Below are positions 55,777-57,909 of a DNA stretch of 57,949 nt, piece by piece (the first letter of the stretch is position 1; every line of letters begins with the position of its first letter). The notes below the pieces were generated by a model. It had not been told where the DNA came from, did not search any database, and worked only from the letters and a program-made list of their open reading frames with translations. This stretch comes from Leptolyngbyaceae cyanobacterium clean351 (GTDB taxonomy: Bacteria; Cyanobacteriota; Cyanobacteriia; DAIDHW01), in NCBI GenBank assembly GCA_027451865.1, contig DAIDHW010000011.1, positions 1-57,949 on the forward strand. The letters are read 5' to 3'. The translations under genes and the position numbers were made by a program.

Positions 55777-56100
55777 TCCTTGAGGAGGGAGAGATGAATG
55801 AGGGTGCGAGGGACCGCACTCTCACCTGAGACTACGTCCGCGGACTTAGATCATAAACTGAAATTCCCCTGGTGCAGCGCTTTGGATCTTGACTATGCTC
55901 CGCGGTCAGACGGCAATACCAATCATCCCCAACATACTCCAGTGGGAAATGGGCGTCAGAGGCATAGAGAGAGTATAATTAATTTATAACTATAAAGTCA
56001 TTAATTTGCTTGTGTTAGCTACGATCGTATGAGCTTTGTTCGCGATCTCCGGGTTTTAGGGGGTCTCGAGGGAGACAATTACATCTAGGAGAGAGTTACC
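55777..56100 (+). other. Divergent spacer argS / SQR-like gene, with promoter elements
   Basis: 324 bases with no credible gene. The last 130 bases are distinctly AT-rich. TATAAT occurs at 55974-55979 and AGGAGAG, the ribosome site for the next gene, at 56087-56093. No TTGACA-like -35 box is found 16-18 bases before the TATAAT, so the promoter may need an activator, fitting an inducible sulfide-responsive gene. Confidence 0.55.
55974..55979 (+). promoter_or_regulatory. -10 box (TATAAT) upstream of the SQR-like gene
   Basis: Exact TATAAT 122 bases before the ATG at 56101, in an AT-rich run (TATAATTAATTTATAACTATAA is split by several weaker alternatives). No matching -35 box is visible. Confidence 0.4.
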
Positions 56101-57909
56101 ATGGCCAACATTGTTTTGATTGGGGCTGGGCTGGGGGGCCTACCCACAGCCTACGAGTTGCGGCAGATCTTGCCCCGAGAGCATCAGATTACCCTCATTT
56201 CCCCCGGTGCGAAGTTCACTTTTATTCCCTCTCTTCCCTGGGTTGCCTTAGGTTTAGTGCCCCTCAGTCGGCTGCAGGTTGATCTAGGGTCAGTACTGTC
56301 TCGGCGGGGGATTCAATGGTTATCGGGGTCAGTAACTAGACTTGACCCTAAGCAACAGCAGGTCTGGGTTGGTGAACAGACTATTACCTACGACTACCTA
56401 GTCATTGCGACTGGCGCCGATCTAGATCTAGAAAGCGTACCGGGACTAGGACCGGAACATGGCTACACTCAATCTGTTTGTACTCCTCACCACGCCGAGT
56501 TAGCTTGGCAGGCTTGGCAGAGATTCCTGGAACAGCCCGGGGAACTTGTGGTAGGGGCAGTTCCGGGGGCTAGCTGTTTTGGACCCCTCTACGAGTTTGC
56601 TCTTTTGGCCGATTTCGTTTTACGACAGAAAGGTCTCCGAGTGCCGATAACCATAGTCACTCCAGAACCCTACGCCGGGCATCTAGGCATTGGGGGAATG
56701 GCTAACTCTGCTCAGCTGGTAACTCGTCTGTTGTGGGAGCGCCAGATCAACTTAATAGACAATGTGGCCATCACAGCCATCACTCCCCAGACGGTAGTCT
56801 TAGCCTCAGGAGAGAGCTTGCCGTTCAAATTTGCCATGGTTTTACCTCCCTTTCGGGGGCCCCAATTCGTCCGCCAAACCCCCGACCTAGGAGATCACCA
56901 AGGATTTATCCCCGTTTTAAATACTTATCAACATCCCCAATACGCCAACATTTACAGTGTTGGTGTAGTCACTCAATTAGCTCCCCCTGAACCAACCCCA
57001 ATCCCCATCGGCGTACCCAAAACCGGCCAAATGACAGAGGCCATGGGTCTAGCCGTCGCCCATAACCTTGCCTATACCTTGGGAGAGATTCAGGCTCCAC
57101 CCGTACAACCCACCCTCGAGGCAGTTTGCTTCGCCGATTTTGGCAACACAGGAATTCTATTTGTGGCTGCCCCAGTAATAGTGCCGGCAGGTGAACGCCA
57201 CCGTACCCTAGCTCTTCGGGGTCCTTGGGTAGGTCTGCTTAAGACTGGATTTGAGCGTTATTTTCTGTGGAAGATGAGCCTAGGTCTAGGAGTTCCCTGG
57301 TTTGAGCGCTGGGCACTGCGAGGGCTAGGTCTAACCCTGACCCGACCTCTGCCCCAACGGGAACCTATAGGTCCTGGGCAATTATCCGAGGACAAAAGGG
57401 GGAGATATTTATCTCGAGTGTTGTGGTTAGTGGTGTTATTTTGGTTGGTCGGTTGGGGATTGGGGATGTTTGTCCAGACTCCCGCCGGGGCGACCATCAG
57501 ACCATTGGAGGAATCTGCCGGTCAATTCATCTACCAAACCCGCCAGACCCTCACCGACCGGCAGGGCCAACCCTGGCAGGCGATCGCCTTCCGGCGCACC
57601 GGTCAAGTTCATTTGCGACTGGTGGGATTTCCGGGGACAGTGAACATTGACCACTCCCGACCCCTAGAGATCAGTGACGCCCAGGGTAAGATCCTCCAGG
57701 CAGCTGATCTATCTTCCATTACCTTCACAGACTCCTATCATCCGCAGGCCAATGTTGGGGAATACGAACTTGGGTCTGTGGCATCTGAGCTTGCTACCCA
57801 GGCTCCTCTAAGTCTGACCGTCCCCACCAAAACTGGGATACCTGTGCACATCCCTGTTCCTTCAGCCTTCGTGGTAGAGTGGCAACTCCTCAAGGGACTA
57901 CCTGATTAA
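56101..57909 (+). CDS. Sulfide:quinone oxidoreductase-like flavoprotein fused to a membrane helix and a DUF3122 domain
   Basis: 602 residues with a good ribosome site (AGGAGAG). Residues 1-430 are a sulfide:quinone oxidoreductase: FAD loop IVLIGAGLGGLPTAYELR, VIATGADLDL near 105, and three conserved cysteines. These are Cys127 (SVCTPHHAE), Cys159 (GASCFGPLYEF) and Cys343 (EAVCFADFG), the set that carries polysulfide in characterised SQRs. After the usual amphipathic end comes a membrane helix (about 438-458, LSRVLWLVVLFWLVGWGLG). A beta-rich segment follows to residue 602, beginning ATIRPLEESAGQFIYQTRQT, which matches the cyanobacterial DUF3122 pattern, probably on the far side of the membrane. 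Predicted reaction: sulfide oxidation feeding the plastoquinone pool. The fusion is unusual to me. Confidence 0.88.
   Translation: MANIVLIGAGLGGLPTAYELRQILPREHQITLISPGAKFTFIPSLPWVALGLVPLSRLQVDLGSVLSRRGIQWLSGSVTRLDPKQQQVWVGEQTITYDYLVIATGADLDLESVPGLGPEHGYTQSVCTPHHAELAWQAWQRFLEQPGELVVGAVPGASCFGPLYEFALLADFVLRQKGLRVPITIVTPEPYAGHLGIGGMANSAQLVTRLLWERQINLIDNVAITAITPQTVVLASGESLPFKFAMVLPPFRGPQFVRQTPDLGDHQGFIPVLNTYQHPQYANIYSVGVVTQLAPPEPTPIPIGVPKTGQMTEAMGLAVAHNLAYTLGEIQAPPVQPTLEAVCFADFGNTGILFVAAPVIVPAGERHRTLALRGPWVGLLKTGFERYFLWKMSLGLGVPWFERWALRGLGLTLTRPLPQREPIGPGQLSEDKRGRYLSRVLWLVVLFWLVGWGLGMFVQTPAGATIRPLEESAGQFIYQTRQTLTDRQGQPWQAIAFRRTGQVHLRLVGFPGTVNIDHSRPLEISDAQGKILQAADLSSITFTDSYHPQANVGEYELGSVASELATQAPLSLTVPTKTGIPVHIPVPSAFVVEWQLLKGLPD

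Follow-up and report, generated by a model that had tools for sequence, protein, structure and literature searches.

Four kinds of described systems stand closest to the locus analysed here. The plasmid pSYSM of Synechocystis PCC 6803 carries, in this order, genes for a sulfide:quinone reductase (SQR), an ArsR regulator, a DUF3365 (Tll0287-like c-haem) protein and a DUF3122 protein, with DUF302 and chrA genes divergent; it is apparently the locus given as suo by Nagy et al. (2014). Stand-alone exported DUF3122 proteins (PF11320) consist of the whole domain preceded by a signal peptide with an A-x-A motif, and the library that we searched contained no paper naming DUF3122. The type I SQRs of A. 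ferrooxidans and Aquifex aeolicus and the sqr1 products of Geitlerinema/Oscillatoria limnetica are alike in fold and in how long their catalytic part is, and they have in common three active-site cysteines and a C-terminal 'FExYFLxKM...PWFE' region. In Geitlerinema, sqr1 is found with arsR; the paper describing this (PMC5061849) also cites the plasmid operon of Synechocystis, which includes a DUF302 gene and suoT. Type I sqr genes also occur in the early-branching Thermostichales and Gloeomargaritales, with ArsR, ArsA, ArsB, ChrA and petC2 encoded nearby; the paper describing these clusters (PMC11304991) mentions neither DUF3122 nor a fusion in its passages on sqr.

The gene described here comes from a 2.48-Mb, 98.8% complete cyanobacterial genome. 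Its SQR part, type I-like as in those early-branching lineages, has all the common traits of type I enzymes listed above, but the known ones end at about the point where the linker starts, whereas this protein goes on into a transmembrane helix and a DUF3122 domain. It likewise has the complete domain and signal peptide of the stand-alone DUF3122 proteins, all others of which, as far as seen, are encoded by separate genes, whereas here the domain forms the C-terminal part of an enzyme. The two proteins, their order and their strand are those of pSYSM, but there they are separate genes with the ArsR and Tll0287-like genes between them. We consider it fairly probable that two genes adjacent in a cyanobacterial operon for sulfide oxidation were joined naturally, with the SQR on the cytoplasmic face of the membrane and DUF3122 facing the lumen or periplasm in an accessory role. 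The fusion and topology parts of this explanation are much stronger than the part concerning the accessory role.

The fused gene and its parts

The window, that is, the whole stretch of DNA analysed (57,949 nucleotides), is an entire contig (C11). Close to its end, an uninterrupted open reading frame of 602 residues begins with ATG and runs from 56101 to 57909 on the plus strand, and the contig ends 40 bp past its last base. Its features are as follows.

56101..57909, plus strand: fused gene for SQR, retained signal peptide/transmembrane helix and DUF3122 (ORF reading, Pfam)
56101..57342, plus strand: type I-like SQR domain, residues 1-414 (PDB phmmer, AlphaFold2, Foldseek)
56479..56481, plus strand: Cys127 codon, aligned with Cys128 of A. 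ferrooxidans SQR; cysteine in 34 of 42 aligned SQRs
56575..56577, plus strand: Cys159 codon, aligned with Cys160 of the same enzyme; invariant (42/42)
57127..57129, plus strand: Cys343 codon, aligned with Cys356 of the same enzyme; invariant (42/42)
57343..57408, plus strand: short linker RPLPQREPIGPGQLSEDKRGRY, residues 415-436, made up of the SQR C-terminal end and the basic n-region of the DUF3122 signal peptide (SQR homologues end here; AlphaFold2 disorder at 422-435)
57394..57402, plus strand: AAAAGGGGG run just 5' of the signal peptide, where a one-base indel, false or real, would split the ORF (frames read)
57409..57492, plus strand: DUF3122's former Sec signal peptide, predicted to form an internal transmembrane helix, residues 437-464 (AlphaFold2 helix 437-454; family signal-peptide pattern)
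57484..57492, plus strand: A-G-A signal peptidase I-like motif, residues 462-464 (alanine at -1 kept in 118 of 121 DUF3122 proteins)
57490..57888, plus strand: DUF3122 domain, PF11320 (Pfam; AlphaFold2 pLDDT 88.6)

The frame comprising SQR, helix and DUF3122 is thus confirmed as real in this DNA. An A+T-rich stretch, TAATTAATTTATAACTATAAAGTCATTAATTTGC, lies upstream of it (window 55970-56015) and is a possible ArsR-type operator or promoter.

The domain search proposed in the earlier note returned both expected families. PF07992 matched residues 3-248 (E 8.8e-13), in agreement with an FAD/NAD(P)-type fold with two dinucleotide-binding domains. The best PDB match of the SQR part was A. ferrooxidans SQR (3sz0; phmmer E 6.6e-92, residues 2-414), followed by that of Aquifex aeolicus (3hyv; E 1.2e-90). 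Since these E-values are far better than those for the more distant SQRs of Acidianus (3h8i; 2e-32) and human (7e-20), the comparison classes the part as type I-like rather than as type II or V. Its nearest relatives are cyanobacterial SQRs, and it has no signal sequence of its own. The AlphaFold2 model has pLDDT values mostly of 93-98 in this part, and in Foldseek it matched 3hyv (target TM-score 0.93; 0.90-0.93 for 3hyv and 3t2z together). The whole 602-residue protein contains exactly three cysteines, the three listed above, which bears out the claim that all catalytic cysteines are kept. The flavoprotein part indeed looks active.

The tail was correctly assigned to DUF3122. The Pfam match covers residues 464-596 (E 1.2e-35; 123 bits against a cut-off of 25 bits) and positions 1-133 of the 134 in the model. 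The six residues invariant in the family (D31, W37, Q38, R51, L67 and W139 of A1) are all present, at positions 486, 492, 493, 506, 522 and 594 of the fusion. The predicted fold is beta-rich with a C-terminal helix (pLDDT 88.6, pTM 0.83); no PDB structure matched it in Foldseek with E <= 0.001, nor did searching PDB sequences with a profile give a significant match. In the family, 128 of 130 members are devoid of cysteine, which, together with the identity of these six invariant residues, argues against persulfide or haem chemistry in DUF3122. In the DUF3122 tree, the fused domain is on a long branch (1.03; median 0.15), possibly a sign of relaxed constraint. A whole-genome profile search found no other DUF3122 match in this genome, and among 14 named control genomes the only match was in a cyanobacterium.

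We then compared the junction with the N-termini of other DUF3122 proteins (133 distinct frames gathered, 130 used). A hydrophobic stretch directly precedes the domain in 129 of the 130, a net-positive n-region precedes this stretch in 122, and an AxA-type motif marks the domain boundary in 123. The fusion has the same layout in an internal position, as can be seen from its sequence RGRYLSRVLWLVVLFWLVGWGLGMFVQTPAGA-TIRPLEE beside that of the stand-alone protein of locus L036, RIRKFLSWLLLLGAIVLVVLLRLGLLNPPLAAA-DIRELEE. On the SQR side, homologues end soon after the aligned '...LSLVxPL', a little beyond the start of the linker. Together, the signal-peptide pattern of nearly all DUF3122 proteins and the end of the SQR homologues at the linker indicate that a complete SQR and an entire DUF3122 precursor are joined with hardly any extra sequence between them. 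The membrane crossing after the SQR claimed in the earlier note is upheld by the modelled helix (residues 437-454), but that helix, as judged from sequence, is DUF3122's own Sec signal peptide kept internally and not a new linker.

A retained signal peptide might still be processed. It is quite possible, although we would stop short of calling it probable, that signal peptidase I cuts after Ala464, leaving the SQR anchored in the membrane by its C-terminus and releasing a mature DUF3122 protein, so that the fusion would link their expression 1:1 and nothing else. The A-G-A motif, whose alanine at -1 (A464) is the one conserved in 118 of 121 homologues, and the resemblance of the preceding stretch to an ordinary DUF3122 signal peptide are consistent with such a polyprotein. 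Nevertheless, internal hydrophobic segments frequently stay uncut, and the stretch with the 437-454 helix has the length needed to span the membrane. Both this outcome and a lasting tether are compatible with the natural joining of two operon genes.

Gene neighbourhoods of SQR and DUF3122

We analysed 386 genomes of the phylum for co-occurrence. DUF3122 was found in 154 of them and an SQR of this type in 35. DUF3122 is present in 34 of the 35 SQR genomes, the exception being G060, as against 120 of the 351 others (Fisher p 5e-14, phylogeny ignored). In G060, the SQR cluster (L125) codes for ArsR, SCP2-like, rhodanese and further proteins, and the genome-wide absence of DUF3122 amounts to a natural loss.

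The two genes are also neighbours, as had been suggested for other genomes. Of the 34 other SQR genomes, 14, representing nine family codes, have DUF3122 within ~6 kb of the SQR gene. The pair is on the same strand in 13 (G118, G296, G172, G054, G368, G215, G282, G247, G286, G179, G089, G170 and G085) and divergent in G111; three further linked genomes (G388, G389 and G402) lie beyond the phylum sample count. The estimated probability of such adjacency by chance is ~6e-22, again ignoring phylogeny. Besides pSYSM, a Pseudanabaena ABRG5-3 plasmid carries the order SQR - ArsR - DUF3122 - SCP2 - rhodanese - RND pump. In G118, SQR and DUF3122 are in the same frame, separated by a 51-bp gap with the TAG of the SQR gene and one more stop; this arrangement is a near-fused state. 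Its open frame of 656 residues had been considered as a second fusion and was rejected because the DNA shows these two stops between the genes. Thus, a complete type I-like SQR in frame with a complete DUF3122 precursor, together with the operon neighbours found elsewhere, indicates that two operon genes are read as one. Just upstream of the fused gene, the window contains neither the ArsR nor the Tll0287-like neighbour of the operon.

In the DUF3122 tree, the SQR-linked label required 12 changes, compared with a mean of 18 after shuffling. These are spread over several branches rather than one clade, and hence the linkage was gained or lost repeatedly. The fused protein is placed in an unresolved group (21 rows, nine of them SQR-linked).

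A survey of 91 DUF3122 loci revealed other neighbours. The commonest is the Tll0287-like (DUF3365) c-haem protein, encoded at 17 loci in 10 families and always on the same strand, followed by SQR (16 loci, 12 families), RibD (15 loci, mostly in one family of small, marine-picocyanobacterial-looking genomes) and rhodanese (13 loci, 8 families). The Tll0287-like neighbour occurs both with and without SQR (L109, L111, L118, L120, L209 and others), and this protein is possibly an overlooked partner in cyanobacterial sulfide oxidation. The RibD-adjoining proteins form a divergent DUF3122 clade (L182-L199, family f20), in genomes that lack this SQR except for G370. In family f7, DUF3122 is found among [NiFe] hydrogenase genes in the order HoxU-like - DUF3122 - HoxY-like (8 loci each); it is on the same strand as the hydrogenase operon, with intergenic gaps ranging from a few bases to some tens (L130, L131, L135, L143, L156 and others). 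In family f6, DUF3122 is beside genes for a metallo-beta-lactamase-fold protein, rhodanese and TauE (L147, L149), and these genomes lack this SQR in the sample. By our reading of its sequence, the metallo-beta-lactamase-fold protein is probably ETHE1-like, i.e. persulfide-dioxygenase-like. With 154 genomes having DUF3122 and 35 having SQR, DUF3122 cannot be a partner of SQR only. Similarly, the linkage in several branches and the 120 genomes with DUF3122 but not this SQR do not imply an SQR-specific function.

The prevalence of the c-haem neighbour bears on a further proposal, that DUF3122 is a lumenal link of SQR, the c-haem protein and cytochrome b6f (PetC) in a sulfide-driven electron-input complex. 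In addition to those 17 loci, a gene for the PetC Rieske protein lies near SQR at L113, and petC2 adjoins sqr in the Thermostichales clusters described in PMC11304991. The genome with the fusion itself, however, has no Tll0287-like gene by a PF11845 search that was positive in six control genomes, and we regard the proposal as unlikely.

Membrane topology and role of the DUF3122 part

Sec signal peptides insert with the N-terminus inside and the C-terminus outside. This orientation, the lack of a signal of the SQR's own and its FAD binding together lead us to infer that the SQR is on the cytoplasmic face and DUF3122 across the membrane, on the lumenal or periplasmic face. After folding in the cytoplasm, the N-terminal flavoenzyme would sit on that side of the photosynthetic (or plasma) membrane. 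Sulfide would be oxidised at Cys159/Cys343 and the electrons passed through FAD to plastoquinone. The signal sequence would place DUF3122 on the other side, where it would stay tethered to the SQR or be freed by signal peptidase. There it may serve as an accessory protein, stabilising or positioning membrane redox modules, the partner being SQR here and other enzymes elsewhere.

That DUF3122 is such a non-catalytic accessory is a tentative guess from genomic context, favoured because DUF3122 also occurs in the Hox hydrogenase and persulfide-dioxygenase-like clusters. The idea that it anchors the enzyme, put forward earlier, is possible, but an anchor is unneeded given that related SQRs are membrane-bound without any tail. 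As for the SQR of R. capsulatus, it is reportedly periplasmic, judging by the title of a 1999 paper by Schutz et al., which is at odds with the cytoplasmic placement proposed here. Taken further, the fusion might be a natural topology reporter, showing that the cyanobacterial SQR is on the cytoplasmic face, unlike that of R. capsulatus, and DUF3122 might assist membrane electron-input modules in general from the lumen side (SQR, Hox hydrogenase and persulfide oxidation); we view this extended proposal as speculative and rather doubtful.

The earlier note had also suggested that DUF3122 handles the sulfur product, a suggestion that our results do not support. Binding of polysulfide or S0 from the SQR and its transport by DUF3122 would agree with the linkage of the family to SQR, rhodanese, the persulfide-dioxygenase-like gene and TauE. 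Yet the family has no conserved cysteine, which makes a sulfur carrier unlikely, the signal-peptide logic puts the domain across the membrane from the SQR, and members of the family are also encoded in Hox operons and in the marine picocyanobacteria-type genomes that lack this SQR. We therefore judge a sulfur-handling role very improbable.

Equally slight is the likelihood that separate, overlapping SQR and DUF3122 genes were fused by a one-base sequencing or assembly error near AAAAGGGGG. The fusion is known from one MAG-like genome, the sole representative of its order in the sample, with the gene at a contig end; none of 84 further SQR genomes has a second fusion, and a scan of genome contigs returned only SQR relatives from outside the cyanobacteria, none of them a fusion. 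We read the other two frames across the junction. In the +1 frame, a shifted SQR would stop at TAG 57428-57430, and an in-frame GTG at 57418 is a possible DUF3122 start. Against such an error, both conserved parts are whole in one frame, the five-base run is short and the linker has no good start codon. The basic n-region KRGRYLSR, homologous to those of other DUF3122 signal peptides, is upstream of the GTG, the sole in-frame start, and would hence be lost; a frameshift or internal start was rejected on these grounds. An assembly chimera as the main reading was discarded in view of the single frame, the expected operon neighbour and the signal-peptide homology through the junction.

DUF3122 is found in ~40% of the sampled cyanobacterial genomes. 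The fusion, backed by a gene order conserved across roughly a dozen families, provides the first concrete functional link for the family, namely to sulfide-driven quinone reduction. The fusion also bears on the unsettled membrane side of SQR, which decides where sulfur is deposited and protons are released in sulfide-driven photosynthesis. Thus, the fusion suggests that the DUF3122 family is tied to sulfide oxidation and indicates on which side of the membrane the enzyme may work.
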